The notes under the pieces: generated by a model
Seen by the model: the letters and a program-made list of their open reading frames with translations, nothing else
Databases searched by the model: none
Told to the model about the DNA's origin: nothing
NCBI GenBank assembly: GCA_963921195.1
Contig: OY992538.1
Span: 6,968,330 to 7,032,329, forward strand
Length of the DNA: 64,000 nucleotides
Direction of reading: 5' to 3'
Source: Pegoplata infirma
Lineage: Eukaryota; Arthropoda; Insecta; Diptera; Anthomyiidae
Program-made: the position numbers and the translations under genes
Part shown: positions 30,320-54,700 of the stretch, piece after piece
Layout of the letters: every line of letters starts with the position of its first letter
Position numbering within the stretch: position 1 is the stretch's first letter

Positions 30320-31367
30320 ATGATTCTTTGTGGAAATATTTTTCTTGATGAATTGAGTAAAACATTCAATTTAAAATGTGTACTTTGTAAGAAGAAATCA
30401 AAACGTTATACGGATTTTGTTAATCACATTCGGAAGAAACATAAAGAATTGGATGAAAAAGAAGCCTCACCACCGCCACCACGGGTCATTATAAAGAAAA
30501 TAAAAGATGAGGACAACAGCAGCGTTCAACAAAGTGAAGATGAAGAAAAACCCCAAGTTGAAGTGGAAGTTCAAATTAAAGATGAAATGGATGTGGATGC
30601 TTTGGCAGAATTTACAGATGAAATGAAATATGACGATCAAGAAATGGAAGTAAGATACGAACAAAAAACAAATCATTGATTTTTCATTTTATTTACACTT
30701 GCAATATTTTTTTTGTTTTGTATAGTCTTTTATTGATCCTATATTGGCATTTGATGAAAAAGATAATAGTTTAGATGCATTGGATGCATTCGATTCGGAT
30801 GTTAAAGATGAAGATTATGCTCCAGATGAACCCGATAATGATGATTCCGATGATGAAGATTACCAAGATGAAGAAGCCGAAGCCGTTGGTAACGAGGCTG
30901 ATTCGGATTCTGATGAACCCAGACTTGCTGTAGCAACAGACAAGGTATAGTTTTTTTTATACATTTGTCTACTTTTAGATGAAATTCCTAATTTTTAATT
31001 ATACTTTTTACAGTTTTCTCCCACATTCTATCGTAAAAAACGTTTTGTCAATGATTTCATTGACCTTTACAAAGCCCAGCCCGTTTTGTGGGATATAAAT
31101 GATCCTTTATTTGAAGATAAAAATGCACAAAAAGAAGCTGAAAAAGCGATGATAGCAGGCATGCAAAAGTTTAATATATTTCTTAAAGCATCATCGTTGA
31201 AAAGTGCTATAAATAAAGTGCACAAATATTGTAACATCATAGGAGCCGATTTAGAAAATGGAGATAAAAAAAAGGTTACAACCGTAGCCAAAGCCTATTA
31301 TCAGAAATGTGACTTTCTAAAAGATTTGCTGGCTAAAAAAAATACACAAGGAGACGACAACAAGAAC
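30320..31367 (+). CDS. Common head exons of a MADF-like/C2H2 zinc-finger locus
   Basis: Three exons, 30320-30649, 30726-30944 and 31014-31367, all phase 0 (110 + 73 + 118 codons), with donors GTAAGA, GTATAG and GTAAGT. The product starts with one C2H2-like finger (CVLCKKKSKRYTDFVNHIRKKH), then Pro-rich and strongly acidic sequence with SIM- or transactivation-like character, and in exon 3 a MADF-like helix set beginning FVNDFIDLYKAQPVLWD. There is no stop: the last exon ends in a good donor, so it must splice onward. The only compatible acceptors I find are those of the seven homologous terminal exons downstream (32188-44858). Likely a nuclear DNA-binding factor. The start is the first ATG after a short AT-rich leader. 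Related D. melanogaster genes may be the CG1602/CG1603 type, from memory and unverified. Confidence 0.8.
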
Positions 31368-31710
31368 GTAAGTTTAAAAAAAGTTATTTTTTAACCCTTT
31401 GAGACACGGGTCGGGCCACACCATTTCAACGTACATATTTCTAAAAATTCAAAATTACCCAAAATTTAATTTTATTGCATTCAGAATTGTACAATTATGT
31501 AAAAATTTTCAAATAGTCTACACAAAGTTTAAACATTTCTGATTGGATTCAACTCGGAAACGGTGTAGTAGACAATTACTAAGTTTCTTGTTTTTGCACT
31601 GCTACCAGCAACAAAAAGCAGCAGGAAAATTAATTATAAATCCCTTAATAATTCAAGTTAAAATTAGAAAGTCTCCATAGTGTTTTTGAGTCTCAAGGGT
31701 TAAACTCTTA

Positions 31711-31940
31711 CGGCCGTATTCAAAATGAAAATCGAGTGGCTAACATCGAGTGTCTTAACTTTTTTATTCGTAATTTTTAATAATGGAAAGTAAGGTCCTT
31801 GATGAAAGTCAATCATTTTATCACAATAATGAAGATAAAGGAATATAACATCGATTAAAAGCAAAATTTACTAGAAAACTTGATATAAAAAAGATTGACA
31901 CCCGATATTAGACACTCGTTTTTCATTTTGAATACAGCCG
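31711..31940. mobile_element. 230-bp MITE with TTA duplication (PIF/Harbinger-like)
   Basis: The ends CGGCCGTATTCAAAATGAAA and the complement of CGGCTGTATTCAAAATGAAA are flanked by TTA (31708-31710, 31941-31943). The paralogous intron before cassette 2 (TTACACAT at 33538-33545) lacks it, giving a natural empty site. The remainder of the intron 31368-32187 is duplicated before cassette 2 and otherwise featureless. Confidence 0.88.
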
Positions 31941-32187
31941 TTACACATATCTTAGCAGAAATACATTTTCACTTTTGCATTATATCTGTTTTTATAATCT
32001 CGCGTGACCCATTCTTAATGTAACGTGTATATTTTTGCCAACAATTAAAGTTATGTTGGAACGATGGAATAAAATGATATTTCATTCCAGCGCTCCTAAT
32101 GATTTCTTTACGCCAAAATGTTTTTTTTTAATAGTGACAAATAACTGTTCTATTTTTGTTTTTCTTTATTTTCTAAAAACAAAAAAG

Positions 32188-33129
32188 AATCCGTTATCAT
32201 TAAAAAAATGGGATGATATTACTTCTAAGTTCATCGATATTTATGAAGCATATCCTCTGTTATACAATCCAAAACATCCACTATTTGGAAATACCGAAGC
32301 AAAGGAAAAGGCTCTAGTCGAATTTAACAATGTATTGTTAAGCCAATACTCCATAGACTTTAATGAAGAAGACATGTCTAATGCAATGAAACAAATAAAA
32401 CATTGGTATTATAGAGCAAAGCGAAGCAAAGGGAAACATTCAAATATCAAATTAAGTGATGACGAAGAGAAATATTTCAAGAAGTGCAAATTCATGCCAG
32501 CTGAAAGATCCAGAAAAATTTTTTTCTGTGATAAATGTGATAAAAATTTTTTCACGGATCACAATTTTAAGCTTCATCTATTTAAAGTCCATCAACTAGG
32601 CGACTTGCCATTTCAATGTGATCAATGTGATAAGAAATGTGAATCAAAACATGCTTTGCAAGTACATGTACAGCGTAAACATATTGGAAAAACGTTTCCT
32701 TGTGAATTTTGTGGTAGGAAATTTTCTATACTATCAGAATTAAAGACTCATACGCGAGTACACAGCACTGAAAAGCCTAATGTATGTGAACATTGTGGCA
32801 AATCTTTTAGATTAACACATCAAATGAACGTTCATGTAACACGTATTCATAACAAGATACGGGCCTATAAATGTACGATGTGTCCTAAGGATTTTTTTAA
32901 GAATGTCGATTTAAAAGATCACATAAAAACGCATTTAAATATACGAGATCAGATATGCGATACATGTGGGAAAGGATTTTCAAGTTTACATTCATTAATA
33001 CGTCATCGTCAAATACATTCGGAGGTAAAGAAATATGCTTGCAAATTATGTGATGCTAGATTTCATCAGTTTGTTGGCCTCAATGGTCACATGAAAAGAA
33101 CTCATAACATCGTGAGAAAAGATGCTTAA
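32188..33129 (+). CDS. Terminal exon cassette 1: MADF-like domain + seven C2H2 fingers
   Basis: Acceptor AAG precedes codon AAT at 32188 in phase 0, matching the head donor; 313 codons. The MADF-like part begins WDDITSKFIDIYEAYPLLY and ends WYYRAKRSK. Seven C2H2 fingers follow, then a short basic tail. Finger helices 1-4 read TDHNFKLH, SKHALQVH, ILSELKTH, LTHQMNVH. AATAAA at 33219. The spliced product would be about 614 aa. Frame open upstream of the acceptor (from 32035) is hydrophobic intron sequence. The AAG acceptor is weaker than the CAG of cassettes 3-7. Confidence 0.88.
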   Translation, partial: NPLSLKKWDDITSKFIDIYEAYPLLYNPKHPLFGNTEAKEKALVEFNNVLLSQYSIDFNEEDMSNAMKQIKHWYYRAKRSKGKHSNIKLSDDEEKYFKKCKFMPAERSRKIFFCDKCDKNFFTDHNFKLHLFKVHQLGDLPFQCDQCDKKCESKHALQVHVQRKHIGKTFPCEFCGRKFSILSELKTHTRVHSTEKPNVCEHCGKSFRLTHQMNVHVTRIHNKIRAYKCTMCPKDFFKNVDLKDHIKTHLNIRDQICDTCGKGFSSLHSLIRHRQIHSEVKKYACKLCDARFHQFVGLNGHMKRTHNIVRKDA

Positions 33130-33787
33130 ACCCGTTTTTGTGTGTTATAATCTAATTATAATGTTTTGTATTTTTAAATATTTACCTATAAAGAAATTGA
33201 TTGAATTTGATTAAAAACAAATAAAGCTATTAGATTTATTTCTAAAAACTTAAAATAACCTAAAACTGAAATTTATTACATTCAGAATAGTACAATAATG
33301 TAATTATAAAATTTTTAAAAGTCCATACAAGATTTAAACATTTCTGATTGAATTCAACTCGAAAAGTTTCTTAGTTGTGCTCTGCTAAGCGTGGGATTTT
33401 TAAAAATGCAAATGGTCAAAATATTAAAAAATATTTTTATCAGGAACCCATTAGCAGAAAAACTTATTATAAATCCCCTAATAATTTTAGAAATTGAAAA
33501 ATCTACATAATGTCTTTAAGTCTCAAGGGTTAAATTCTTACACATTTCTATGCAAAATACATGTTCACTTTTGCACTATACTTGTTTTTACTATCACCCG
33601 TGACCCGCTCTTAATATAACGTTTACATTCGTGCGAACAAGTGAAGATATTATGTTGGAACGATGGAATAAAATGATGTTTCATTCCAGCGCTCCTAACG
33701 TTTTCTTTACGCCAACACGTTTTTTTTTATACAGTAACAAATAATTGTTCTATTTTTGTTTTTCTTTATTTTCTTAAAACAAAAAAG
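33130..33787. other. Intron between cassettes 1 and 2, duplicated
   Basis: About 33245-33787 is collinear with 31430-32187 apart from the MITE at 31711-31940. A shared block GGAACGATGGAATAAAATGA followed by TTCATTCCAGCGCTCCTAA lies about 110-130 bp before both acceptors and contains a small inverted repeat. No head-like exon was found. Confidence 0.6.
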
Positions 33788-34729
33788 AATCCATTGACAT
33801 TCAAAAAATGGGATGATATTACTTCTAAATTCATCGATATTTATGAAACATATCCTCTGTTATACAATCCAAAACATCCACTATTTGGCAATATCGAAGC
33901 AAAGGAAAAGGCTCTAATCGAATTTAACAATGTTTTGTTAAGTCAACACTCCATAGACTTTAATGAAGAAGACATGTCTAATGCCATGGAACAATTAAAA
34001 GCTTGGTATTATAAGGCAAAGCGAACCAAAGGAAGACATTCAAATATCAAATTAAGTGTAGACGAAGAGAAATATTTCAAGAAGTGTAAATTCATGCCGG
34101 CAGAACGATTCAAACAAATTCTTTTCTGTGATGAATGTGATAAAAATTTTCTCACGGATCACAATTTTAAGCTTCATCTATTTAAAGTCCATCAAATCGG
34201 AGATTTGCCTTTTCAATGTGATCAATGTGATAAGAAATGTGAATCAAAATATACTTTACAAGTACACGTGCAGCGTGTACATATTGGAAAAAAATTTCCT
34301 TGTGAATTTTGTGATAGAAAATTTTCTATACTATCAGACTTAAAGACTCATACGCTAGTGCACACCACTGAAAAGCCTCATATATGTGAACATTGTGGCA
34401 AATCCTTTAGATTAAAACATCAAATGGGCGTTCATGTTACAGCGATACACACTAAGATACGCGCGTTTAAATGTACCATGTGCCCTAAAGATTTCCTTAG
34501 AAATCGCGACTTGAGCGATCACATAAAAAGTCATTTGAACATACGTGATAAGATATGCGAAACTTGTGGTAAAGGATTTTCAAATATCCATTCGTTAATA
34601 CGCCATCGTCAAATACATTCGGAGGTTAAAAAATATGCTTGCAAATTATGTGATGCTAGATTTCATCAGTTCGTTGGCCTCAATGGTCACATGAAACGAA
34701 CTCATAAAATAGTGAGAAAAGATGCTTAA
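33788..34729 (+). CDS. Terminal exon cassette 2: MADF-like domain + seven C2H2 fingers
   Basis: Same length and layout as cassette 1 (313 codons), with the AAG acceptor before codon AAT at 33788. Closest relative is cassette 1, by recent tandem duplication including the intron. Finger helices 1-4 read TDHNFKLH, SKYTLQVH, ILSDLKTH, LKHQMGVH. AATAAA at 34791. It has no upstream start of its own that would give a sensible N-terminus. Confidence 0.87.
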   Translation, partial: NPLTFKKWDDITSKFIDIYETYPLLYNPKHPLFGNIEAKEKALIEFNNVLLSQHSIDFNEEDMSNAMEQLKAWYYKAKRTKGRHSNIKLSVDEEKYFKKCKFMPAERFKQILFCDECDKNFLTDHNFKLHLFKVHQIGDLPFQCDQCDKKCESKYTLQVHVQRVHIGKKFPCEFCDRKFSILSDLKTHTLVHTTEKPHICEHCGKSFRLKHQMGVHVTAIHTKIRAFKCTMCPKDFLRNRDLSDHIKSHLNIRDKICETCGKGFSNIHSLIRHRQIHSEVKKYACKLCDARFHQFVGLNGHMKRTHKIVRKDA

Positions 34730-36122
34730 ACTTTTTTTTGTGTGTTTGTTACAATCTAATTATAATTTTTTGTATACTTTAATATTTACTAATAAAAAAT
34801 TAATTGATTGAATTTAATTTAAAACAAAAATGTTTGGTGATATTATTAAACAAACTATTAGGTTTGAGAAACAGTTCTGTATGTTAGTTTTGAAATCGAA
34901 TTACACTGTTCGACACCAAAAAACTCCCAGTAAAACATCTAACTGGTCCTTTTTGCTATCGGCCTCCCGATTTCAAATCTCCTATCCAATTTTTAAGCAG
35001 TTTTTGGGGCTCCACTGTTACGTTTCATAACGGCGCTACCACAAAGTAGGAATCGAGTTTTTATAAAATGGACATACTGATTCCTAATCAGCATTCCAAA
35101 TTTATCTATCACTTTTCGCCATGGAGATATTTGTGTTTGAAAATTTTAGTCTAAATTATAAAGAATATTAAGAATTTAAGTTAGTAAAAGTGGAGTTTAA
35201 ATTTTCAAACTCGAATATCTCAAAAACGTTACGCTTTAGAAGAATTTAAAATCTAGTGTCGAAAAAAACTATATCTCGAAAACGTAAAGTGTTAAAAAAA
35301 AATTGGATAACTGTGGCGGTGTTCCTTAAACACACACTATTTGTGACACCACTGCCTTACTAATTAGTATGTATGAGATTTTCATGCACTAAAAATTCGA
35401 AAATATGCTCTAAAAAATACAAAATATGCACTAAAAAAACCTAAAAATATGCACTAAAAAAATGAAATATGTACAATAAAAATCATGTTTTCAAACGAAA
35501 AACTTTAAAAAAGCAAAAATAACGCCGGGCTTAAATAAAACGATTTAAAACTTTATATAAGCAAGATTTTTTTAGAAACTTAGACAATCTATAAAAAAAA
35601 AAATTAAAAGAAAAAAATTTTTTTTCTTATTTACAAAAACAATTTTCATAAAATAGTTTTTGAAAAAATAATTTCAATTTGTGTTTTGCTAATTTATACC
35701 AAAATATGCAAAAATGTGCACTTAAAAGTTGGAAATATGCACAAATTATGCACTTAAAACCAAAACATGCAAAAATATGCATTTTCACCAAAATATGCAA
35801 AAACAAATCGATGCCATTTTAACGTAAATTTCTTAATTCGGAAAAATAATTGGTCGATATCATTTTTATACTCTATCAACAAAAAACATAAATTTGCATG
35901 GAAATCACATCAGTGGCGAAACATAGTTTGTTTACTCACAGAAGGTTTTGTGTGTGACATATGCAGAAAAGCTTTTTTTACATCGTAATATTGGCATAAA
36001 AAATAAAATAAGTGAAAATAAACTATAGTGTGGCATTAAAAATATTGACCAGTACCAAAGAAAACAAAAAGTCTATTGTAACAAAAGTTTTATTTTAAAT
36101 TTCAAATTTTCAATACATTTGC
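34730..36122. other. Spacer after cassette 2 with ATATGCA-rich repeat
   Basis: 35380-35810 has many diverged AATATGCACTAAAAA / AATATGCAAAAA units. The remainder is AT-rich. No head-like exon (acidic or LYKAQP-type) was recognised in 34730-38621, the only gap in the array large enough to hold one. Confidence 0.5.
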
Positions 36123-37912
36123 TGGGTTTAAATCAGACACCGGAAAACTTTTTATTTTTTGTTTTTATGACCGTATTTACATTAGGCAATTTTAATTGCG
36201 GCAATTCTGATTTTATCGTGTATCAGAGAGAGATCTAAAATTCTTCCCTCTCTCTCTGATACACTAGAAAATCAGAATTGCCGCAATTAAAATTGCCTTA
36301 TGTAAATTCGGTCTATCAAATATATTTATCGTAGAAGTTCAAAAAACTTTAAATATTTCAAACAGAAAAATATTATAAAAAGTTATTTATTTAAAAATTT
36401 TCCTCATGATCGAAATAAAAAACAAACAAAAAAAAACGTTTTCCAAAAAAGATATTTATCAAAAGTTCAAAAAATAAAACGTTTTTTTTTTTGGATTGTT
36501 CAATATTTTCAAATTGTTTTGTTATTATGTACTTATTTGAATATTTGTTATTTTCAAAATAATTTGATTAGAAGCAAGAAATTGAAATCTGCCAAGAAAA
36601 TTACGATGGAAATTAATGTTTGCGGCGTAGCAAAAATGAGGAATGCTTTAAACAACATTGGTTTGTAGTTTGTTATGAATGCAACATATTTTTACACAGT
36701 TAAAATATGGTGGAATCTTATGGTATCTTACGGTTTTGCAGTTCTTGTCGAAGCTCTTTGAATATCTGAAAATCTGCAACTAAATAAAAGTTATTTAACA
36801 AGAATTTGGATCCCTAAAGCCCTTTCTGGTCCCTAATTTCTCTTTACTAGTATAAATTCATCCGTTTTTTAAAATATAGATTATTTTTACACTAATTTAA
36901 AGGACTTATGTACATTGAGTAGGTGGTTCGAATTAGAGACTTACTGATGACAATACTTTTGTTGCCCTTACACTCCTCAACATTTCGTTTTTAGCACTTT
37001 TAGCCTTTCTTTTACGTGAATAAAAATAATCGCGACAAACTCAACAAGTATTGCTAGTGGTCTTTAAAGGGTTAGCCTTGGCGATGCGAATATTTTTTAA
37101 TACTCGTTCTCTGCGACCTTATAATAGTAACGCCAAACAAAATTATACCTGTATGACCCCTTCTTGCTTTTTATTGGTGAACAAATTTGCCCTTTGACGA
37201 TTACGCAGTTCTGGGCAAATATATTTAGATTGGGAAGTGACTATTAATCTTTTACTTTATAACAGTGAACCACGGAACCACCTTCTTGGTCCAAATTTTG
37301 CTTGACTGTAAAGATGCTTCTGTCCCTCAAATATTTACATTTAAGGGACAGAAGCATCTTTACATGTTCAGGAATTTGGAGAACTTACAGTAGCTAAGTG
37401 GTTTCAAATAGAGACTTACTAACTACTGTAACATTCTACAATTCATCTTTAATCACATTTACCATATTGTTTACCACGACAAAAAGGTTTTACAAGATCA
37501 CAAACTCATTACTTCATTAACTAGACGTCCTAAATACGTTTCCAATGGTTATCTACTCCAATTTATCGGACCAAAATTGACTCAGATATGATAGATTTAT
37601 GTTTATTTAAATAAACATATTTCCAATTATTTTTTTATACAAAAAAAAAACGTTTTTTTTTGGTTTTATTTATTTTTTTTTTTTTGTACGATAAATATCT
37701 TTTTTAAATTTTATGGAAAACGTTTTTTTTGTATTTTTAAATTTTTATGTTTTGGAAAGAAAAATATATTTTGAACTTGCGATGAATATACAAAACAATA
37801 TTACAGAAAAATATTTTATTTGGAACACAATAATTTTTTTTATTTTTGATGAAAACTTAAAATTTTGTGTTTTCGGTTTTTAAAATCCGGTGTCTGGTTT
37901 AAATAATTTTGT
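36123..37912. mobile_element. Fold-back element of about 1.8 kb
   Basis: Ends TTTAAATCAGACACCGGA and TCCGGTGTCTGGTTTAAA are inverted repeats; inner arms have AACGTTTT and AGATATTTATC on the left with complements near 37680-37740. A separate palindrome, CTTCTGTCCCTCAAATATTT with its complement, lies at about 37317-37365. No ORF. Boundaries are approximate. Confidence 0.6.
36169..36313. mobile_element. 145-bp hairpin MITE (copy 2), nested in the fold-back
   Basis: Arms of about 65 bp: GACCG-ATTTACAT-AGGCAA, TTGCGGCAATTCTGATTTT and TGTATCAGAGAGAGA on the left, with complements on the right. Same family as 23287-23437. Confidence 0.85.
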
Positions 37913-38621
37913 ATGAAAAATTATTCAAAATACTGGGAAATAGTAGACAAGGGTGGTCAAGGGTAGTTAACATGAAAATAGCCTTAAGTTGTTTATTAAA
38001 CAAAATTTCAGTTCTTTTTGATTTCAATTCATTACTTTACAGAAAAAATTTTTTCCCATCATTCCAATAATTTTGGAAAAATTCATAATTGACAGAAAGT
38101 TATCGCAAAACAAAATTACAGAAACAGGACTTGTGCCGATTCACAATATTTCTGTTTCGATTCCAGAGTTATAGAACACCCCTACTGATTTGAAATTGCG
38201 AGGTATATTTAATGTAAAATCAAGTCCTTTTTTGTGGGAGCTGCTTAAAAATAAGTTAAAGGGGAGACCTAAAAGCTGCTAAATTAGCGACTTTTTCAAT
38301 ATTCAAACGCGCATATCTTTGAAACGAACGGTAGGTGATAGAAAAATTAGAACGGTGAACTTGGAGGTCAAAATCTATCTTTTTGCGTGATGGGAGTGCC
38401 AATTTTTCTGAATTTGTTCAACAGTGTAATCAATACCTTAAAATATTGATCCAGCGTGTTTTTATCTTGTTAATAATTGAATAAAGTTGGTTCGGTTCCA
38501 TTCCGTTCGTTTCTTTAACGAAAAAAAATAATTTCAAGCTGTTTTAATCGCCGTTAAATTCCTAATATATGAAAAATAATTATTTTATTTTTATTATCTT
38601 TATTTTCTTAAAACAAAACAG
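37913..38621. other. Spacer before cassette 3
   Basis: No gene recognised. The final 50 bp carry the shared acceptor context (AATAATTATTTTATTTTTAT, CTTTATTTTC, AAAACAAAACAG). Confidence 0.5.
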
Positions 38622-39560
38622 AAACCCTTAACCCTGAATCAATGGGATGACAAAACATCGAATTTCATCGATACTTATGCTAAATTTCCTCTTTTATACG
38701 ATGGGAATCATCCGTTACAAGATAATTTAGGTGAGAGACAAAATGCTATGGTCGAATTCACCAACGCCCTATTAAGTGAGCATAACATAGATCTCAAAGA
38801 TGGCAACCTTTCCGATGCCATAGAACAATTCAAGTCTTGGTATTATATTGCCAGACAACGTCGTGGCAAATCGTATAATAAATTAAATAAAGACGAAGAG
38901 GAATATTTCAAAAAAAGTAAATTTATGCCAGCAAAACGATTAAAGCAAAAATTCACTTGTCCTATTTGCAATAAAAACTTCAACATGGAACACAATTTCA
39001 CGGGTCACATGTACAAATTCCATCAAGTAGGAGAACTACCATTTAAATGTGAACAATGCGGCAAAAAATTTGACATGAAAACTACTCTACAACAGCACAT
39101 CCAAAGAATGCATGTTGTTAGAAAATTCACATGTAATGTATGTTTTAAACTATTTGCTCTGCCGTCTGAACTAAAGTTTCATTACATGGTGCATACGGCT
39201 GAAAAACCACATGTCTGCGAATTATGCGGAAAAGCGTTTAGAATAAAAACTCAGTTGCGCTATCATAAAACAGCAATACACACAAAAATACGTGCTTACA
39301 AATGCACCATGTGTCCCAAGGACTTTTTAAAAAAACGCGATTTGACAGATCATGTAAAAACTCACTTAAATATACGTGATAAAATATGCGAAACATGTGG
39401 CAAAGGATTCTCCAATAGCCATTCGTTAATAAGACATCGTCAAATACATTCGGAAGTTAAGAGATATGCTTGCAAATTGTGTGATGCTAAATTTCATCAA
39501 TTTGTTGGTCTCAATGGTCACATGAAACGAACTCATAACATTGTAAAAAAAGATCCTTAA
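38622..39560 (+). CDS. Terminal exon cassette 3: MADF-like domain + seven C2H2 fingers
   Basis: CAG acceptor before codon AAA at 38622, phase 0; 312 codons. Opens KPLTLNQWDDKTSNFIDTYA. Finger helices 1-4 read MEHNFTGH, MKTTLQQH, LPSELKFH, IKTQLRYH. Fingers 6 and 7 keep SHSLIRHRQIH and FHQFVGLNGHMKRTH. AATAAA at 39657. An internal ATG at 38748 is in frame but would cut the MADF-like domain in half, so the spliced start is preferred. Confidence 0.88.
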   Translation, partial: KPLTLNQWDDKTSNFIDTYAKFPLLYDGNHPLQDNLGERQNAMVEFTNALLSEHNIDLKDGNLSDAIEQFKSWYYIARQRRGKSYNKLNKDEEEYFKKSKFMPAKRLKQKFTCPICNKNFNMEHNFTGHMYKFHQVGELPFKCEQCGKKFDMKTTLQQHIQRMHVVRKFTCNVCFKLFALPSELKFHYMVHTAEKPHVCELCGKAFRIKTQLRYHKTAIHTKIRAYKCTMCPKDFLKKRDLTDHVKTHLNIRDKICETCGKGFSNSHSLIRHRQIHSEVKRYACKLCDAKFHQFVGLNGHMKRTHNIVKKDP

Positions 39561-39883
39561 ATAAAATGCAGTTTTTATTTGAACTTTGCGCGTTTTTTTA
39601 GAATAAGTATATATTATACAATATAATGTCATGATTAAGTAATACAGAAATTTAAAATAAAAAATAATCATTTTCAAACTATAATGTTGTTATTATTTAA
39701 CAATAATTAAATTTTAACAAAATCGATGAAAGTTTTATTAGAATTTCGAAATAACACGTATTGTTCTATTTTTCCAACTACTATTTTAACCACAACAGGG
39801 CATGAGTGTAAATATCTTAAAATATTAAGAGTAATTGTTTTTTTTTTTTTTTGTTTTCTATATTTTCCAAAAATGATGCACAG

Positions 39884-40819
39884 AAACCATTAAAACTGAA
39901 TCAATGGGATGATACCACATCTAAATTTATCGAAACATATGCTAAATTTCATATTCTTTACGATGGAAACCATCCGCAATATGGTAAATTTGAAGATAAG
40001 CAAAACGCTATGATCGAATTTCAGAACATGATATTTATTCAGTACACCATTGATTTTAAAGGAGAAACTCTATCCGAAGCTATAGAACAATTACATACGT
40101 GGTATTATCATAAGAATTGCCGTAAACAAAAATCCGATGCAACGTTGAATAAGGATGAAGAGATTTATTTAAAAATGTGTAAATTCTTGCCAACAAAAAG
40201 ATTGCAAGTCAAGCTTGTATGTGAAATTTGCAATAAGAACTTTTATGCGGATCACAATTACAAGTATCATCTTTTTAGAGAACACAAAGTAGGGGATTTA
40301 CCATTTTCCTGTGAAATGTGTGGAAAAAAGTTTACATCACAATCCACACTACATGGTCATAAAAATAGAGTGCATAGTCTAAAAAAGTTTACATGTGAAT
40401 TTTGTGACAAATCATTTGCTGTACGATCAGAACTTAGAACTCATACTCTGATACATACTGCTGAAAAACCATACGTATGTGAACTATGTGGTAAAGGCTT
40501 TAGATTAAGAAACCATTTGAATATTCATGTCACAGCTATGCACACCAAGATACGGGCTTTCAAGTGCACCATGTGTCCCAAGGATTTCAAAAAGAAACGG
40601 GATTTAACCGATCATATAAAAGCTCATTTAAATATACGTGACAAAATATGCGAAACTTGTGGCAAAGGGTTTTCAAATATCCATTCGTTAATACGCCATC
40701 GTCAAATACATTCGGAGGTCAAAAGATATGCTTGCAAATTATGCGATGCTAGATTTCATCAATTTGTGGGTCTCAATGGTCATATGAAACGAACTCATAA
40801 TATTGCAAAAAAAGTATAG
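39884..40819 (+). CDS. Terminal exon cassette 4: MADF-like domain + seven C2H2 fingers
   Basis: Acceptor CACAG before codon AAA at 39884, phase 0; 311 codons. The intron part is only 323 bp after cassette 3 and has a diverged acceptor tract with a long T run. Finger helices 1-4 read ADHNYKYH, SQSTLHGH, VRSELRTH, LRNHLNIH. AATAAA at 40950. Confidence 0.88.
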   Translation, partial: KPLKLNQWDDTTSKFIETYAKFHILYDGNHPQYGKFEDKQNAMIEFQNMIFIQYTIDFKGETLSEAIEQLHTWYYHKNCRKQKSDATLNKDEEIYLKMCKFLPTKRLQVKLVCEICNKNFYADHNYKYHLFREHKVGDLPFSCEMCGKKFTSQSTLHGHKNRVHSLKKFTCEFCDKSFAVRSELRTHTLIHTAEKPYVCELCGKGFRLRNHLNIHVTAMHTKIRAFKCTMCPKDFKKKRDLTDHIKAHLNIRDKICETCGKGFSNIHSLIRHRQIHSEVKRYACKLCDARFHQFVGLNGHMKRTHNIAKKV

Positions 40820-41145
40820 GTCTGGTTTTAAACAATTCAAAAATAGCAATTATAGTTTTTTCTTTACCGAAACACTAAATCTATCGGATACCAGTTATAA
40901 TCCCCCCAATCGATTGTAAAACTGTAATTATATTTAGTTAGATTTTAAAAATAAATACTTTCATAACTTATAAGGTTTCAATTCCAAAATGTCATTTGTT
41001 TTACTTCACTTCGCTTTTTTGTATGATTTTACTATTTCGTCGGATTTTTGTTGCCGCAAATGACCCTCGCTCGCCGTTAATGTTTAAACTTATAAAAAAA
41101 ATAATTGTTTTATTTTTGCTTTCTTTATTTTTTAAAACAAAACAG

Positions 41146-42090
41146 AAACCATTAACCCTAAATCAAGTGGATGACAAAACATCTAAATTCATCGATACTT
41201 ATGCTAAATTTCCAATACTATACGATGGAAAACATCCACTTTATGGTAAATTTGATGATAAACAAAAAGCTTTGATCGATTTTCGCAATACATTACTAAG
41301 TCAGCACAACATTGATTTTAAAGGAGAATTTCTAACCGATGCCATAGACCAGTTACAAATGTGGTATTATCTGGTCAAACGTCGTCAAGATAAACCGGAT
41401 ACAAAATTGAATAAAGTGGAAGAGAGTTACTTTAGAAAGTGTGATTTTTTGCCGGCAACAAGATTAAAAGTAAAAATTGTCTGTAATATTTGTAACAAAC
41501 AATTTTATACAGATCACATTTACAAGTGTCATCTTTTTAAAGATCATCAAATAGGAGATTCACCATTTCCTTGTGAGCAATGCGGAAAGAAATTCGTTTC
41601 TAAATCGGCTGTGCAATGTCATGTACAAAGAGTACATAGTGAAAAAAAATTTCCATGTGATTTTTGTGGAAAATCATTTGCTGTACCATCCGAACTGAGA
41701 TTACATACTTTAATTCATACCGCTGAGAAACCTCATGTATGTGAACTATGTGGCAAAGGCTTTAGACTAAGAAACAATTTGGGGCTGCATGTAACGCGTA
41801 TGCATACCAAAATACGAGCGTTCAAATGTACGATGTGTCCTAAGGATTTTCTTAAGAACGTCGATTTGAAAGATCACATAAAAACGCATCTAAACATACG
41901 CGACAAGATATGTGAGACATGTGGCAAGGGATTTACAAATTGTCACTCATTAATACGACATCGTCAAATACATTCAGAAGTTAAAAAATTTGCCTGTAAA
42001 TTGTGTGATGCTAAATTTCATCAATTTGTGGGTCTGAATGGTCATATGAAACGCACTCATAATATTGTAAAAAAAGATACAAACAAATGA
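41146..42090 (+). CDS. Terminal exon cassette 5: MADF-like domain + seven C2H2 fingers
   Basis: Acceptor ACAAAACAG before codon AAA at 41146, phase 0; 314 codons. The gap after cassette 4 is 326 bp, too short for separate head exons. Opens KPLTLNQVDDKTSKFIDTYA; the usual Trp is Val. Finger helices 1-4 read TDHIYKCH, SKSAVQCH, VPSELRLH, LRNNLGLH. AATAAA at 42113. Confidence 0.88.
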   Translation, partial: KPLTLNQVDDKTSKFIDTYAKFPILYDGKHPLYGKFDDKQKALIDFRNTLLSQHNIDFKGEFLTDAIDQLQMWYYLVKRRQDKPDTKLNKVEESYFRKCDFLPATRLKVKIVCNICNKQFYTDHIYKCHLFKDHQIGDSPFPCEQCGKKFVSKSAVQCHVQRVHSEKKFPCDFCGKSFAVPSELRLHTLIHTAEKPHVCELCGKGFRLRNNLGLHVTRMHTKIRAFKCTMCPKDFLKNVDLKDHIKTHLNIRDKICETCGKGFTNCHSLIRHRQIHSEVKKFACKLCDAKFHQFVGLNGHMKRTHNIVKKDTNK

Positions 42091-42558
42091 TATTAGAAAT
42101 TATATTGTTCTTAATAAATTATTTTTAAACAAGAATAAATACCTAGATATTATAACATTAAACAAAGCTTTTGAATTGGTTATACCATTATATTTGACCT
42201 AAATGGGAAAAAATACATTTTTGGGGATTTGTCAAAAAAGGGTTCACTTCCGTTTCCCATAATTGGGTAAAGTTGGTTAAAATAAGAGTTACCCAAAAAA
42301 AGTGTCTTAAAAGAGAAAAAAATATACACAATTGAAGAAACGCAAAAGCGCTGGTTTTGGTTCCACTGTAACGTACGGAAACGTACTTAATTTACAATTT
42401 CAAAATATTCGCATATCCTCTTCCGCTATATATTTTCATTCCACAATTTCGTCGGTTTTTCGTTCCCACAAATGAACTTCGCTGTTTATGTTTAAACTTA
42501 TGAAAAATAATTGTTTTATTTTTGCTTTCTTTATTTATTTTTTTTTTCAACAAAACAG

Positions 42559-43500
42559 AAACCATTAACCCTAAATCAAGATAACGATATCACCGTTAAT
42601 TTTATCAATGCGTATGGTAAATTTCCTATACTTTATGATGGAGAGCATCCACTTTATGGCAAGTATGAAGATAAACAAAACGCTCTGATCGAATTCCGTA
42701 ATACATTACTGAGTCAGTACAATATCGATTTTAATGGAGCAATTCTAACCGATGCCATAGATCAGTTACATATGTGGTATTATTTTATCAAACGACGTAA
42801 ACGGGAAACCGGAAAATTAAATAAAGAAGAAAGAAATTATTTCAAAATGTGTAAATATTTGCCTGCAGAAAGATTAAAAGCCAAGATCTTGTGTAATATT
42901 TGCAACAAACCATTCAATACGGATCACATTTACAAATTACATCTTTTTAAGGATCATCAAGTTGGAGATTCACCATTTCCTTGTGAGCATTGCGGAAAGA
43001 TGTTTTTATCAAAATCGACTTTAACCGGGCACGTACAGAGAGCACATAGTGGAAAAAATTTTAATTGTAACTTTTGTGAAAAATCATTTGCTGTACCATC
43101 GGACTTAATGAAGCACACTTTAGTGCATACTGCCGAAAAACCTCATGTGTGTGAACAATGTGGCAAAGGATTTCGATTAAGATACAATTTGAATCTTCAT
43201 GTAACACGTATGCATAACAAGGTACGTGCCTTTAAATGCACAATGTGTCCTAAGGATTTTTTTAAGAATGTCGATTTAAAAGATCACATAAAAACGCATT
43301 TAAATATACGAGATAAGATATGTGAAACATGCGGCAAGGGATTTACAAATTGCCACTCATTGATACGTCATCGTCAAATACATTCAGAAGTAAAAAAATT
43401 TGCCTGTAAATTGTGTGATGCAAAATTTCATCAATTTGTGGGTCTTAATGGTCATATGAAACGCACTCATAATATTGTAAGAAAAAATGCAAACAAGTAA
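42559..43500 (+). CDS. Terminal exon cassette 6: MADF-like domain + seven C2H2 fingers
   Basis: Acceptor ACAAAACAG before codon AAA at 42559, phase 0; 313 codons. Opens KPLTLNQDNDITVNFINAYG. Finger helices 1-4 read TDHIYKLH, SKSTLTGH, VPSDLMKH, LRYNLNLH. AATAAA at 43524. Closest to cassettes 5 and 7. The 468-bp gap before it (42091-42558) has no exon. Confidence 0.88.
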   Translation, partial: KPLTLNQDNDITVNFINAYGKFPILYDGEHPLYGKYEDKQNALIEFRNTLLSQYNIDFNGAILTDAIDQLHMWYYFIKRRKRETGKLNKEERNYFKMCKYLPAERLKAKILCNICNKPFNTDHIYKLHLFKDHQVGDSPFPCEHCGKMFLSKSTLTGHVQRAHSGKNFNCNFCEKSFAVPSDLMKHTLVHTAEKPHVCEQCGKGFRLRYNLNLHVTRMHNKVRAFKCTMCPKDFFKNVDLKDHIKTHLNIRDKICETCGKGFTNCHSLIRHRQIHSEVKKFACKLCDAKFHQFVGLNGHMKRTHNIVRKNANK

Positions 43501-43554
43501 TTTAAGAAATTATACTTCTTTTTAATAAACTATATCAAAATAAATGTGTACCTA

Positions 43555-43700
43555 CAGTGGCTCACAACCGTAAGTCGGACAGTAGATAGTAGATATCAAT
43601 TCGTTAAAGACGAAGTTAACAATACCAAAACTTATGATCAATATAAAAATATGATACGAGGGTCGAACTGGAAATCAACTATCTACTGCCCAAGCCACTG
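43555..43700. mobile_element. 146-bp MITE with TA duplication (Tc1/mariner-like)
   Basis: CAGTGGCT and AGCCACTG ends flanked by TA (43553-43554, 43701-43702); subterminal AGTAGATAGT and ACTATCTACT also pair. It lies between cassettes 6 and 7, just past the cassette 6 poly(A) signal. Confidence 0.78.
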
Positions 43701-43912
43701 TATGTATAAATAAATAATAACAAAGCTTTTTAATTACTTACACAGTTCGGCGAACTAAAAGGTTTTGTCATTCTATGAGCAAATTAAAGGTTAATCTTTT
43801 TTAATTGTGGCTTATCGTTCTAACAAACAATCTTTGACGTTAATTCATATTGTTAAACTTTTTAGAAATAATTGTTTATTTTTACTTTCTTTTTTTTTTT
43901 TAAACAAACCAG

Positions 43913-44858
43913 AAACCATTAACCCTGAATAAAAATAACGATATCACCACTAAATTCATCGATACCTATGCAAAATTTCCTGTACTATACGACGGAAAAC
44001 ATCCACTATATGGTAAATTTGAAGATAAACAAAACGCTATGCTCGAATTTCGTAATACTACTAAGTCAAAACAATATAGACTTTAAAGAAGAAATTATAA
44101 GCGATGGCATAGATCAATTACATAAATGGTATTACTATATTAAGCGTCGGAAACAAAATCCGGAAACAAAACTATATAAAGACGAAGGGACTTATTACAA
44201 AATGTGTAAACAATTTTTGCCTGCAAACCGATTAAAAGCAAAGATTTTGTGTAATATTTGCGACAAAACATTTAATACGGATCACATTTACAAGCTGCAT
44301 CTTTTCAAAGATCATCAAACAGGAGAGTCACCATTTCCGTGTGAGCATTGCGGAAAGAGCTTTTTATCAAAATCGACTCTAAATTGCCACATACAGAGAT
44401 TACACAGTGGAAAAAATTTAACGTGTAACTTTTGTGATAGAACATTTGCTATGCCTTCAGATTTAAGGAAACACGTTTTAGTGCATACAGCTGAAAAGCC
44501 TCATATTTGTGAACTATGTGGCAAAAATTTTCGAATAAAATACAGTTTGAGTCTTCATGTTACTCGTATGCATAACAAGATACGGGCCTTTAAATGTACA
44601 ATGTGTCCTAAGGATTTTTATAAGAACGACGATTTGAAAAATCACATAAAATCGCATCTTAACATACGCGATAAGGTATGTGAAACATGTGGTAAGGGGT
44701 TTACAAATTGTCACTCTTTAATTCGGCATCGTCAAATACATTCAGAAGTAAAAAAATTTGCCTGCAAATTGTGCGATGCGAAATTTCATCAATTTGTGGG
44801 TCTTAATGGTCATATGAAACGCACTCATAATATAGTTAAAAATAATGTTAGTAATTAA
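43913..44858 (+). pseudogene. Terminal exon cassette 7 with a 2-nt frameshift in the MADF-like domain
   Basis: Acceptor AACCAG before codon AAA at 43913 is intact and the reading frame opens KPLTLNKNNDITTKFIDTYA as in cassette 6. Near 44056-44060 the sequence CGTAATACTACTAAG lacks two bases present in cassettes 5 and 6 (CGTAATACATTACTAAG in cassette 5), so the spliced frame runs into a stop (TAA at about 44075) while the downstream frame, with seven intact C2H2 fingers, is shifted. Finger helices 1-4 read TDHIYKLH, SKSTLNCH, MPSDLRKH, IKYSLSLH. AATAAA at 44869. Either a recently broken exon or an assembly error. Confidence 0.8.
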
Positions 44859-48502: not shown

Positions 48503-48734
48503 GAGGTAACTGTATTTGTCACTTCGAAAAGTGTCGCGTCTGTTTAGTGTGAAGTTTTAGTGTTTCATTCCATTTTGTTTCAGATCATATTTGCTAGTTT
48601 TGCATTGATATCCTCACACAATAGTAAGTACAATATCAGCTGTTACAAGAAACGTTAGTTAAATTTTCATAATTTTTCTAGTTTTAAACAAATAATCTAA
48701 AATATTTTATTTAAATACATCATTTATCTTCAAG

Positions 48735-51700
48735 ATGAGAACATTTCTTTTAAGGCTCAGTATACATTTAAGACAAAATGAATTGCTTATCAGAAGGCGT
48801 TTTGTAAATTCCGCATGTTGTGTTTATACAACCAGCAGTAACCAAAGCAATTCGTTATGCATCAATGTTGACTCTTTGAATTCTAAAAGAACATTTTGTT
48901 CGGCCCAGACAGCTATAAAAGCGGACAACGAAAAAGCTCACTGTAATATTGGTACCATTGGTCATGTGGACCATGGCAAGACAACTTTGACAGCAGCCAT
49001 TACAAAAGTATTATCCAATAAAGGCTTAGCGGATTTTGTGTCTTATGATCAAATAGATAGAGCACCCGAAGAAAAAGCCAGAGGAATAACTATCAATGCC
49101 TGCCACATAGGTTATGCTACATCGCAAAGAACCTATGCTCATACAGATTGTCCGGGACATGCTGATTACATCAAGGTATATTTGATTTATTTCATACAAT
49201 GGATACACTAATGATTTATTATGTTGTACTATATTAAGAACATGATTTCTGGAGCCTCACAAATGGATGGTGCCATCCTAGTAGTTGCTGCTACTGACGG
49301 CCAAATGCCACAAACTAGAGAACACTTGCTATTGGCCAAACAAGTGGGTATACAAAAAATTATAGTTTTTATTAATAAAGCCGATTTGGTGGATCAAGAG
49401 GTACTCGAATTAGTAGAAATTGAAATGCGTGAAATGTTAACCGATTTTGGGTTCGATGGCCTCAACAGTCCCGTTATATGTGGATCAGCTTTATTGGCAT
49501 TACGTGATGATCCTACGCCGTTTGGTGTGCCTTCCATTGAAAAACTAGTTGATTGCATTGACTCTTATGTACCGACACCGAAGCGTGATATTGACTCGCC
49601 ATTTATATTGCCTATTGATAATGCCTTCACTGTACCTGGACGAGGTACAGTAGTAGTAGGAACAATAAAACGTGGTACAATTGTTAAAAATGCTGAATGT
49701 GATCTTTTGGGTTTTAATCAGAATATTAAAACATCAGTTGGGGATATTCAAATATTTAGAAAAAGCATACCAAAGGTAAATTTAAATAAGAAATGGTAAG
49801 AAATTTGAATAAAAGAACTAAGCATTTGATAACCACATTTTGATTATATTTTTTTTACAAAACTCGGTAAAGGAATATGAACATGATTGCGGAACATTTT
49901 TTTTTTTAAATTTCGCTTAGAGTCGGGGTCGGAACTGTTGTTTTTTAGGTCAATATACACCCTTCAAATCTAATCTTTCGATATTAGTGTCGTAATATCT
50001 TTCGAACGATGGCCACAAAAAAACTGTGTGGAAATCTTTAGTCTGCAATTGTGTTTACCATCGGCAGGTACTACGACACGAAATTCAAAAGTTTAGATTT
50101 GACGGGTCGACTAAATACACAATAAAAAACAATTGCACCTGCGGGGCAATTTCTTTGGGTTTCTATGTTAATAGAAAATTGGACAGAGCAAACTGATTTA
50201 TTTTTTTTTTTAGGAAAAAATATTTATTGAATGCTAGGACATTACTAAAAAAAGTTGTTCTGGTAATAGAATTTATTTGGTACAAGACATTACCCCAACA
50301 CGGTTAACCCCGACGCTAAGCGAAAAAAAATGTTCTCAAAACTTGTTTGCTACGCCCTAGTGAACGTCTTATAATGCTTTTCCTTAAGATGTTTTTTTAA
50401 ACTTTGTAGATAGCTCATTTTCTTGCAAATAAATCATCTTGCAAAGTAGAGACCTTAACATTAAGTTCAAAGTTCCGCAGAGTAAAATTGTAAAAATCAG
50501 CTTTAATAAATGAATGTATGTGTGGAACAAGGTGCTAAAATCCAATTTTTGGAAATCGCGTTTTTTTGCAAAATCGTGCCTTCCTACAATAGTTCGACCT
50601 ATTTGTAAATAAATTTGTTAAAAACTTGATCGTTTTCTGTCATAAAAGTTCAATTTTAACTACTTTTGGGAATATTTTATACTTTTTGCCTTATACTAAC
50701 ATGTGCTTTGCAGTTAAACTAAAGGTCATATATTTAAATTCTTACATGTGAGATGGTTAACGTTGAGAAAACATCCTGGGCTTTAACATGTGCCCATTGG
50801 TTTGGCAAAAAACGCTATATTATCTAATCCATCGATAGTTAAAGTGTAAACTGGAAAAAGGTGCTATATCCATATAAAAACATAATACTGTTTTACGTAA
50901 TACTAAGGGTGGATTTTGATAATCTATCAAATTTTTTAGTTCAAACTTTAAAATTTAATGGTTAGTAACTTATATCATAAATTGTGCAAATTTTTTAACC
51001 CATTATGGGGGAAGTTGTTTAAATAAACCATACAACAGTTATTTGTTGTTTGTTAAATTAACTGATTTTTATTATTTTTATATAAAAATAATCAGTCTTG
51101 CTTAGGCAATTGCCGTGTAAAGTCGTTCTCTTGTTGTGCTAATATTGTATAACGGGTTTCTCTTATTTATTTTTACAAACATAAGAAACAAAAACGTGTC
51201 TTTTTTTTTTTTTTACATAAAGTTAAAATATATATAATTTTAATTGAAAGTTGTTAAAAAAAAAAACTCCGTAATTTCTGCGGGTCGAACCACCCAAAGA
51301 TGAATGGTTCTCATCCCACGAACCATAATCGGTTCAGGGCACTAGGTTCCAATGAAGATATCTCCAATGTAAATAAACGTTTTCGGGGTGATGAATTTAA
51401 CATTGCTCTACCGGAATTCAAACAGTGTGATGACCATATCCCAAGGTATGTAGTGGTATCCCCACGAAACGTAATAGGCAAGGAAGAAACAAACAAACCA
51501 ATATCATCACACAATGTATTCCAAATAGAAAAAGGATTGAATTATATATCGAAAGATTACACAGACGTTGTAGAACTTAAATCAGGTGATCTTTTAATCA
51601 AAACTAACAATCTAAAAGCATCCGAAAAATTCATAAAATCCATGTATGTCGACACAATCCCTGTAACAATTACATACCATAAAGCATTAAATTATGTTCA

Positions 51701-54700
51701 AGGAAAAATTTTCTCCCACAAAATTAAAACTCTTACAGAAGAAGAGCTGACAACAGGACTTAAGTGTCAAAAAGTAGTGGAAGTTAAGAGAATTATGAAA
51801 AAGGTAAATGAAGAAACACTTGAACCAACTGGTGCTGCTATAGTAACATTTGACTTAATAAGACGTCCTGAATACTTAAAAATTGGATGGGAAAGAGTAA
51901 AAGTTAATGAATACATTCCAAATCCTATGCGTTGTAAGAACTGCCAAAAATTGGGACACACAAAAAAACGATGCCAAAATAGCGAACTATGTAAAGAATG
52001 TGGTGAGATGTCCAAACACGAACTATGTGAAAGAAAATATTGCGTAAATTGCAGTGTAGAATCACACACTTCATATGATGCGTCATGTCCAACATTTCTT
52101 AAACACAAGGCAGTAATTAAAATTAAAATTGACAAACGTTGCTCCATAAGGGAAGCTTGGAAAACATACAACTCCAACCCCGAAGCACACAAATTATACA
52201 CAAAAACTAACCCAAAACCAACTTTTGCTAACATTGCAAATGAATCAATCGAAAAAGAAACAACTCAAGCCAAAACCAATAAACAACAAAACAACAACAA
52301 AGAAATAAAAAATATTGAAAACAACAACACTACAACTTCAACTCAAAAAACAGAAAACAACAATACTACAACTTTAACACAAAAAACTGAAAAGCAAATT
52401 ACAAAAAAAGAAACACCAAAACCGTTACCTACAACAAGCAACAAACCAGAAAAAATACCATCAAAACCAACAACATCACAAAATACAGAACATCAACAAG
52501 AAAATAAAAACAACGAAATGGAAATTGACAATGAACCAGAATTTAATTTGATTACACCTAAAAGAGGAAGTCATTTAATCGATCCGGATTCTCCGGGAGC
52601 CGACTTATCCCCATACTCCCGCGCAATTTACACAGATATTAAAAGCCAAATAAATCATACTATAGCTGAAAAGAAAAAACATGCAAAAAAATAATTATTT
52701 GAATATTTTTATTAATAATAAAATCATGAATATTGGTCTTAATATATCTATTATCCAATGGAATGTTCAGGGTTTTCTTAATAATAAATTTGCTTTAGAA
52801 TTATTAGTACATAAACATCAACCAAACATAATTATTCTACAAGAAACTCATATTATACAAAAAAATGAAAAACTATTTCACTTACCAAACTATAGAGTCT
52901 ATCAACACAACAAAGAATATTCTTATGCCAAATCAGGAATTGCAATATTAGTTAAAAGTACCCTCAATGTCATAAGTCATACGACATCTGCTGGGGAGCT
53001 TCTACACCAAACCCTTACCATTCGTGGAACTGAAGACCTGCACATCACCAATATATACAAAGAGTCCAACATCAAAATAAACAACGAACTCATAAACACC
53101 ATTCCTAAATTTAACGCTGGGCATCATCTCATATGCGGTGATCTCAATACACAAAATACCATATGGGGCTCACATTTCACATCACAATCTGGGCATTTAT
53201 GGGAATTTTTTGCAAATGAACGAAACCTCTCATTTATAAACGATGGATCTCCAACACTTTTAAGCACAAAAAATACTTTTACTGCAATAGACGTCACAAT
53301 GGCATCAACCGATCTCGCCTTAAGCTTAAACTGGCAATGTTTCAGTCATGATATGAGTGATCATTTCCCCATATTTATTCAAAACACCAACTTAAGCAAC
53401 AACTATAAAAAATATGTTATAAAATTTAATGATAAACTCGCTGACTGGGTCGAATTTTCTCAGGAGACTAATAATTTGACAAACTTAAAACCAATTTCGG
53501 AAAACATCAACAAGGAAGCTGCCACAATGGGAAAAATAATTCGAACAGCTGCAAACAAAGCAATGCCAGTAAGCAAAGGACCAAAAAATATTAACCATAA
53601 CAAGAGTCCTACATGGTTCAATACAACCATTGCTCAATTAATTAAGGAAAAAAATTCTGCCTGGAAATTATTTAGAAGAAGAGGAAACTTAGCCGATGTC
53701 ATAAACTACAGAAAAACTACTGCAAGAGTTCGAAAAGAATGCAGAGATGCTAAACGTAAAACGTGGGAAAGTTTCCTAAACTCGATAAATCCGTTTACAG
53801 ATTCTAGAATCTTATGGAATAAAGTCAAAAAAATAACATCATCGAGACTGAACAGTTTTCCAACAATTTATCAGGAAAATGAAATCCTTTCTCATCCAAA
53901 ACAGATAGGTGAAGCTTTTGCCAAAAACTGGTGCTCAATAGGCGCCGACAATTCTTTTCATCCAGCGATAATAAGTAAAAAGAACCAACTTAACATTGAT
54001 CTCCTTGAAAACAACCCAAACGAAATTATGAACTTTAACGACCCGGTAAATATATTTGATCTACAAAAAGCTTTAGAAAAATGTAAGGGCTCAACACCTG
54101 GATGGGATAAAATCACATATTCAATGATCAAAAACTCCTCAATTACCTTCAAAAATAGACTATGCAAACTTTTCACCACAATTTTACACAAAGGAATATA
54201 TCCTCATGCATGGAAACAAGCTATTTTAACACCAATACCAAAACAAGGCAAAAATCCAAACAGTACCGAAGGTTACAGGCCAATTTCCTTGCTTCCTGTC
54301 ACATCAAAGGTATTCGATAAAATCCTTTCTCAAAGAATTTGGAAATACTGCAAAAACAGTATTGCAAATGAACAACATGCATATCTTCCTAACAGAGGAG
54401 TCTTCACCTTATGCCACCAAGTCGAAACACATGTGAAAAAAAATATTAGGGAGAAAAAACACTCAGTCATTCTATCAGAAGACTTAGAAAAAGCCTTCGA
54501 TAAAGTAGTAAATTTCACTGTAATACATGAACTGCACAGATGGGGTGTCCCAAAAAATATATTAAAGGTAATAAAATCGTTTCTTTCACATAGAAAAATT
54601 TTTGTAAGAGTAGACGGACATCTCTCCAACTCCTTCATCTTGGAAAATGGGGTACCACAAGGCTCCCCATTATCAGTGGTATTATATACTGCATATGTCA

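Follow-up and report, generated by a model that had tools for sequence, protein, structure and literature searches.

Can a single set of head exons serve a whole row of terminal exons? This question is raised by a locus at positions 30320 to 44858 of a 64,000-nucleotide stretch of the anthomyiid fly Pegoplata infirma (assembly GCA_963921195.1, contig OY992538.1, positions 6,968,330 to 7,032,329, forward strand), hereafter referred to as the window. A first-pass annotation had read this locus as one head followed by seven homologous terminal exons (cassettes C1 to C7), the head being spliced to one cassette at a time to give up to seven factors. Our analysis makes it very probable that one head is indeed spliced to one terminal exon at a time and that at least six DNA-binding proteins would result, the number being lowered since the seventh cassette is frameshifted. 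We infer this joining of head to tail in P. infirma from the anatomy of the locus, the occurrence of one head, the selection acting on the cassettes, their acceptors and the gene models of blowflies.

One head and seven terminal exons

The head consists of three exons on the plus strand with a total of 301 codons, each of which has a length divisible by three, is open and is bounded by GT/AG ends. Head exon 1 (30320..30649) contains the ATG, a C-X2-C-X12-H-X4-H motif and the start of an acidic linker, and ends in a phase-0 donor (GTAAGA). Head exon 2 (30726..30944), in phase 0 at both ends, continues the acidic linker and gave no match in a Pfam scan. Head exon 3 (31014..31367) holds the first MADF domain (MADF1) and runs without a stop to AAC, followed by a phase-0 donor (GTAAGT) at 31368 exactly as the first-pass annotation had placed it. 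The MADF domain (PF10545) in head exon 3 scored 32 bits against a cut-off of 22. The motif in head exon 1 fits the spacing of a C2H2 finger but scored 15.1 against the zf-C2H2 cut-off of 25.2, out of the composition originally given for the head (C2H2 finger, acidic stretch, MADF-like domain), the MADF domain stands above cut-off and the finger, though suitably spaced, below it.

The head is a single copy in the 1.38-gigabase genome of this fly. A six-frame search of the assembly (1,384,285,496 bases in 813 contigs) returned 18 matches to the head at E ≤ 1, the top three being the window exons themselves (1e-72, 8e-64 and 3e-37); the fourth has an E-value of 2.7e-4, so there is no other close match. 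A tblastn search of the six gaps and both flanks with the three head exons gave a best E-value of 0.83, in line with the earlier statement that no head-like exon was seen in the larger gaps. These searches bear directly on the explanation that the cassettes belong to separate genes which arose by tandem duplication and have promoters and first coding exons of their own, and that the head is used by C1 only. Such an arrangement has parallels, as related MADF-finger genes occur in tandem on contig 5 of this fly, with a separate head-like exon between the two tail frames of the locus L031, and Haematobia has two gene models with different heads. However, a head copy was found neither in the gaps nor elsewhere in the genome (an unrelated first exon would escape these searches), the blowfly models described below join one head to several tails, and the sequence shared by the introns of C1 and C2 starts after the head donor. 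We therefore consider separate tandem genes very unlikely. Tandem duplication of the whole gene was rejected, as each copy would then carry a head, whereas the genome search gave a single head and the gaps gave none.

The cassettes were found in register on the plus strand at 32188..33129 (C1), 33788..34729 (C2), 38622..39560 (C3), 39884..40819 (C4), 41146..42090 (C5), 42559..43500 (C6) and 43913..44858 (C7), with spacings of 1600, 4831, 1262, 1262, 1410 and 1358 nucleotides. C1 to C6 are open from acceptor to stop with 313, 313, 312, 311, 314 and 313 residues respectively, C1 and C2 being 86% identical in protein sequence. A second MADF domain (MADF2) lies above the Pfam cut-off in all six intact cassettes, and seven C2H2 motifs are present in each of the seven. 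An AATAAA occurs within 131 nucleotides of every stop (at 33220, 34791, 39656, 40950, 42113, 43524 and 44869), compared with 24% of 3000 random non-coding points. The stop-to-acceptor gaps before C4, C5, C6 and C7 measure 323, 326, 468 and 412 nucleotides, which agrees with the 320 to 470 base pairs first reported.

C7 is the exception among the cassettes. Read from its acceptor it reaches a stop after 57 codons, within the MADF domain, because 2 nucleotides that C5 and C6 possess are deleted near 44059 (located by eye); its seven fingers are open in another frame, and it entered the Pfam scan with its downstream piece. The description of seven homologous terminal exons with MADF domain, fingers, stop and AATAAA holds in full for C1 to C6, whereas C7 is not intact. 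Internal exons chosen in a mutually exclusive manner, as in Dscam, where further common exons follow the cluster, were also considered and rejected, every cassette ending in a stop followed by its AATAAA. When the assembly was searched with C5 (126 of the 1095 candidates being scored), 119 matches were obtained at E ≤ 1e-15, with the cassettes of the array as the top seven (E 2.1e-135 or better) and the eighth at E 1.7e-43 and 33% identity.

An AG precedes all seven predicted acceptors (32188, 33788, 38622, 39884, 41146, 42559 and 43913), and the previous AG lies at least 47 nucleotides upstream. For comparison, 15.6% of 371 non-coding AG sites have at least 45 nucleotides to the previous AG, although the seven acceptors are duplicates of each other and no probability can be attached to this difference. 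The flank from -45 to -1 was compared with 2000 composition shuffles, excluding C1 since it is a recent duplicate of C2, and showed a mean pairwise identity of 0.624 against 0.408 (standard deviation 0.016) in the shuffles, none of which reached the observed value. This conservation of the acceptors supports the reading of one head with many tails. Further upstream, the identity of the stretch from -105 to -61 was reached by 523 of the 2000 shuffles and that of the stretch from -165 to -121 by 1955. An upstream in-frame start in place of splicing was rejected for five of the seven cassettes (C2, C3, C4, C6 and C7), in which no in-frame ATG lies between the acceptor and the upstream stop; C1 and C5 have such ATGs.

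In the proposed working of the locus, the donor at 31368 would be joined to one of the acceptors at 32188, 33788, 38622, 39884, 41146 or 42559, and the poly(A) site of the chosen cassette would close the transcript. The same protein products would arise if head and tails were transcribed separately, the tails from promoters of their own, and joined by trans-splicing. This has precedents in mod(mdg4), with over 30 isoforms, and in lola, where both trans- and cis-splicing are used, and there would be room for a promoter in the long gap that precedes C3. On the other hand, all cassettes lie on one strand and in order, the gaps before C4 to C7 span only 323 to 468 nucleotides, and conservation of the kind that a duplicated promoter might be expected to leave is absent from the two upstream stretches examined (-105 to -61 and -165 to -121). 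Trans-splicing of separately transcribed tails is accordingly judged to be unlikely.

Age, selection and possible exchange among the cassettes

Synonymous divergence (dS; Nei-Gojobori) ranges from 0.24 to 0.55 for C1 and C2 and is at least 0.44 in all other pairs, with 48 of the 54 pair-by-region values exceeding 0.7. The ratio of nonsynonymous to synonymous divergence (dN/dS), with the MADF2 of C7 omitted and one pair saturated in fingers 5 to 7, is 0.03 to 0.12 in fingers 5 to 7, 0.11 to 0.36 in fingers 1 to 4 and 0.13 to 0.42 in MADF2. Because dS is high, C1 and C2 aside, while dN/dS is well below 1, the cassettes are by these estimates old coding exons under purifying selection. It might still be proposed, with the frameshifted C7 as an example, that use is limited to one or two cassettes and that the others are decaying copies. 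Six of the seven cassettes are nonetheless intact at such divergence, dN/dS is low and the acceptor flanks are conserved, which makes general decay extremely unlikely.

The intron in front of C1 preserves a trace of how the array was extended. Its part from 31436 to 32187 (plus strand) matches the region upstream of C2 (33237-33787) in two pieces that are 70% and 86% identical, and the match starts 69 nucleotides past the head donor, thus excluding the head. This is the pattern expected if a terminal exon is copied without the head, and it favours the earlier claim that the array was made by terminal-exon duplication; growth would likely have proceeded by tandem duplication of a terminal exon together with a short upstream piece of intron. 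A stretch at about 31712-31940 is present in the C1 intron only and is missing from the otherwise matching C2 intron. Inverted ends were recognized in it by eye, and it is likely to be a small mobile element that entered the intron once the C1/C2 duplication had taken place.

Identical runs were examined over 451 nucleotides in the 21 cassette pairs and compared with 2000 codon-column shuffles. C1 and C6 share 72 nucleotides across finger 5, and C2 and C4 share 50 nucleotides, neither being matched in any shuffle (0/2000 each). Weaker runs were found for C3 and C5 (32 nucleotides; 15/2000) and for C6 and C7 (53 nucleotides; 19/2000). These runs suggest gene conversion between cassettes, and finger-sized conversion would likely have accompanied the growth of the array.

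The DNA-contact positions of a C2H2 finger are -1, 2, 3 and 6. The contacts of finger 7 are QVGG in all seven cassettes, those of finger 6 are NHSR in six (SHSR in C1), and those of finger 5 are KVDD, KRDD, RRDD or KDDN. The contacts of fingers 1 to 4 vary; at position 6, each of these fingers shows four different residues among C2 to C7. With near-constant contacts in fingers 6 and 7 and variable ones in fingers 1 to 4, the tails would share part of a binding site and vary the rest. The choice of exon would thus alter the DNA target mainly through fingers 1 to 4 and MADF2, while the head and fingers 6 and 7 would stay common to all products. Distinct residues numbered 2.88 in contact columns versus 2.32 in other columns for fingers 1 to 4, and 1.33 versus 1.36 for fingers 5 to 7. 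Faster change at the contact residues was rejected, as this excess is absent in fingers 5 to 7 and, in fingers 1 to 4, too slight to support positive selection.

Relatives in other flies

A protein search with the head and C1 as query, scored over residues 1 to 420, found nine proteins in Lucilia, Calliphora, Cochliomyia and Stomoxys, all of which are calyptrate flies. Seven of the nine are named as isoforms. Three isoforms of L. sericata (X6, X2 and X1; P0004, P0006 and P0007) have 299 identical head residues and then diverge, and two of L. cuprina (X5 and X2; P0001 and P0003) share 302 residues, of which the last three occur in both tails. The blowfly isoforms part after ...DKQN, which is the aligned end of window exon 3 and hence the predicted junction, and the isoform records within each Lucilia species name the same longest contig. 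These models of one head with different tails above all, together with the single head and the conserved acceptors in P. infirma, support the proposal of one head with many tails. In another L. cuprina record, P0008, nearly the same head continues into the X2 tail, which starts further on. Compared with P0003, the first 40 residues of the tail are absent where head and tail meet, as would result from the use of a later acceptor within the MADF2 exon.

With a profile search 17 matches were obtained, which added further records of Stomoxys as well as Haematobia, Musca autumnalis and two other sequences. The tail tree comprised 33 rows, including 12 fly relatives hand-picked among the best 120 of 180 matches and six from the profile search, with P0008 (truncated), P0011 (near-duplicate) and P0015 (tail-less) left out. 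The six intact cassettes and the open part of C7 form one group (support 98/96) together with seven blowfly tails and the two other sequences, and the five muscid tails are its sister group. Within it, C3 groups with the tails of L. cuprina X5 and of L. sericata X1 and X2 (100/99). C4 to C7 are joined by the remaining four blowfly tails and by the two other sequences (99/97), the lineage of C5 including the tails of L. cuprina X2, Calliphora X4 and L. sericata X6, and C1 and C2 make up a third lineage. The window cassettes therefore fall into three tail lineages, two of them common to blowflies. Since C3 and C4 to C7 each group with blowfly tails, at least two tail lineages seem to predate the split of P. 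infirma from the blowflies. As C3 goes with X5 and C4 to C7 go with X2 of L. cuprina, two tail lineages that share one head in the blowfly models both stand behind one head here.

Several observations weigh against the splicing of one head to many tails. One cassette of the array is broken, the acceptors of C1 and C2 read AAAAAAG and not ACAG, and the in-frame ATGs upstream of the C1 and C5 acceptors make an unspliced start possible in these two. For the blowflies, the isoforms are known as gene models. Calliphora and Cochliomyia have one tail each among the proteins found, and these proteins include no blowfly counterpart of the C1/C2 lineage. Two Stomoxys proteins (P0009 and P0011) are alike over their first 216 residues and diverge from there on, within MADF1 as well as in the tail, and the two Haematobia models have heads that differ from the start. 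Muscids seem to have copied longer units, the design not being shared exactly with P. infirma.

The closest described protein is Mzfp1 (CG1603), for which an N-terminal C2H2 finger, two MADF domains, six C-terminal fingers and four exons are reported, with homologues of six or seven fingers in Schizophora and four paralogues in D. melanogaster (PMC11229372; PMC11677238). Given the predicted splice, the window gene likewise has two MADF domains before its finger cluster. The likeness covers the order linker, MADF1, MADF2 and C-terminal C2H2 cluster, preceded in Mzfp1 by a C2H2 finger and here by a motif of C2H2 spacing, as well as the four exons, here three head exons and one terminal exon. The published model has one six-finger set, whereas the window gene has a row of seven terminal exons, every one with seven fingers. 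Seven drosophilid rows were included in the tree. Three of them, whose six C-terminal fingers sit near the published CG1603 coordinates, form a separate branch (100/100) on which the tree was rooted, and we infer from the similar coordinates that they are CG1603 orthologues; the other four are seven-fingered, and the window gene falls with these. Judged by domain order and tree position, it is a relative of Mzfp1/CG1603 that stands closer to the seven-finger paralogue group. Orthology to CG1603 itself was rejected, each cassette having seven fingers and the tree placing the gene apart from the six-finger rows.

In D. melanogaster MADF1 is described as acidic and MADF2 as basic, with domain charges that vary between fly groups. 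The MADF1 of the window gene has an isoelectric point of 8.86 and is thus not acidic, and that of MADF2 ranges from 6.07 to 8.97 over the six cassettes. The finger cluster of Mzfp1 is reported to suffice for specific DNA binding, while neither MADF domain is dispensable in vivo and recruitment to heterochromatin depends on MADF2 (PMC11229372). By analogy, these domain roles may extend to the window gene.

Comparable loci, neighbouring sequence and significance

The lola gene is reported to give at least 20 isoforms by joining common N-terminal exons, which contain a BTB region, to one of many terminal exons through cis- and trans-splicing; most of these exons have zinc fingers, and three isoforms are without them (PMC1947980). 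The window gene resembles lola in the predicted splicing of shared N-terminal exons to one of several finger-bearing terminal exons. It differs in having a C2H2 and MADF head in place of a BTB common part, and in that its tails are copies of one exon. No BTB family was found in the three head exons at E 0.1 in the Pfam scan. The common part of mod(mdg4) is a BTB region as well. Trans-splicing attaches one of over 30 alternative 3' exons, which have independent promoters and lie partly on the opposite strand, to its constitutive exons (PMC12692577). The window gene would share with it the joining of common exons to alternative 3' exons, again by predicted splicing, whereas the array lies on one strand and four of its six gaps are under 470 nucleotides. 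The likening of the locus to lola and mod(mdg4) in the first-pass annotation is thus apt for the predicted mode of working and not for family membership, as a BTB domain is lacking. Homologous alternative terminal exons are known elsewhere, for example in human capping protein beta (PMC3228551). A published description of the array itself was not found among the open-access papers listed, mostly judged by title and the opening of the abstract, with most subscription journals outside this scope. Where terminal-exon zinc-finger arrays were sought, the papers listed dealt with lola, mod(mdg4), splicing in general or unrelated subjects.

Elsewhere in the genome of this fly, on contig 5 at about 201.12-201.50 megabases (L031 and L032), MADF and seven-finger frames form a large cluster. 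It resembles the array in its MADF domains, its seven fingers and its arrangement in a row. In the three stretches read, L031 differs in having MADF1, MADF2 and fingers in one frame and a separate head-like exon, recognized by eye, between the two tail frames, and this cluster looks like the product of whole-gene rather than terminal-exon duplication.

Other features were observed around the array. The 3.9-kilobase gap between C2 and C3 contains 13 inverted pairs in total, including an inverted repeat at 36169-36313 with 65-nucleotide arms that are 94% complementary and 15 nucleotides apart. EF-Tu gene frames lie just downstream of the array at 48696-49799. In a D. palustris model (P0075) a related MADF-finger protein is fused with an EF-Tu whose identity to the downstream EF-Tu frame is 85% over 183 residues, a hint of a conserved neighbourhood of MADF-finger gene and EF-Tu. 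Two long open frames at 51258-56394 are likely to belong to a non-LTR (long terminal repeat) retrotransposon, the second with endonuclease, reverse transcriptase and RNase H domains and the first without a Pfam match.

A wider reading, which we offer tentatively as possible rather than probable, is that the locus is an evolving library of DNA specificities behind one effector head, in which tandem duplication supplies new terminal exons, fingers 1 to 4 and MADF2 diversify, fingers 6 and 7 act as an anchor and gene conversion swaps modules. If this is true, P. infirma and the blowflies would retarget one chromatin factor through the choice of exon. The splicing of one head to one of several tails would, if true, place shared and variable DNA-contact residues side by side in a system whose gain could be dated across flies. 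It would also open the way to tests of the coupling between splice choice and poly(A) site, of binding-site differences between tails and of cis- versus trans-joining on one strand. An Mzfp1-like chromatin factor of flies would then have gained lola-like tails through the repeated copying of its last exon.

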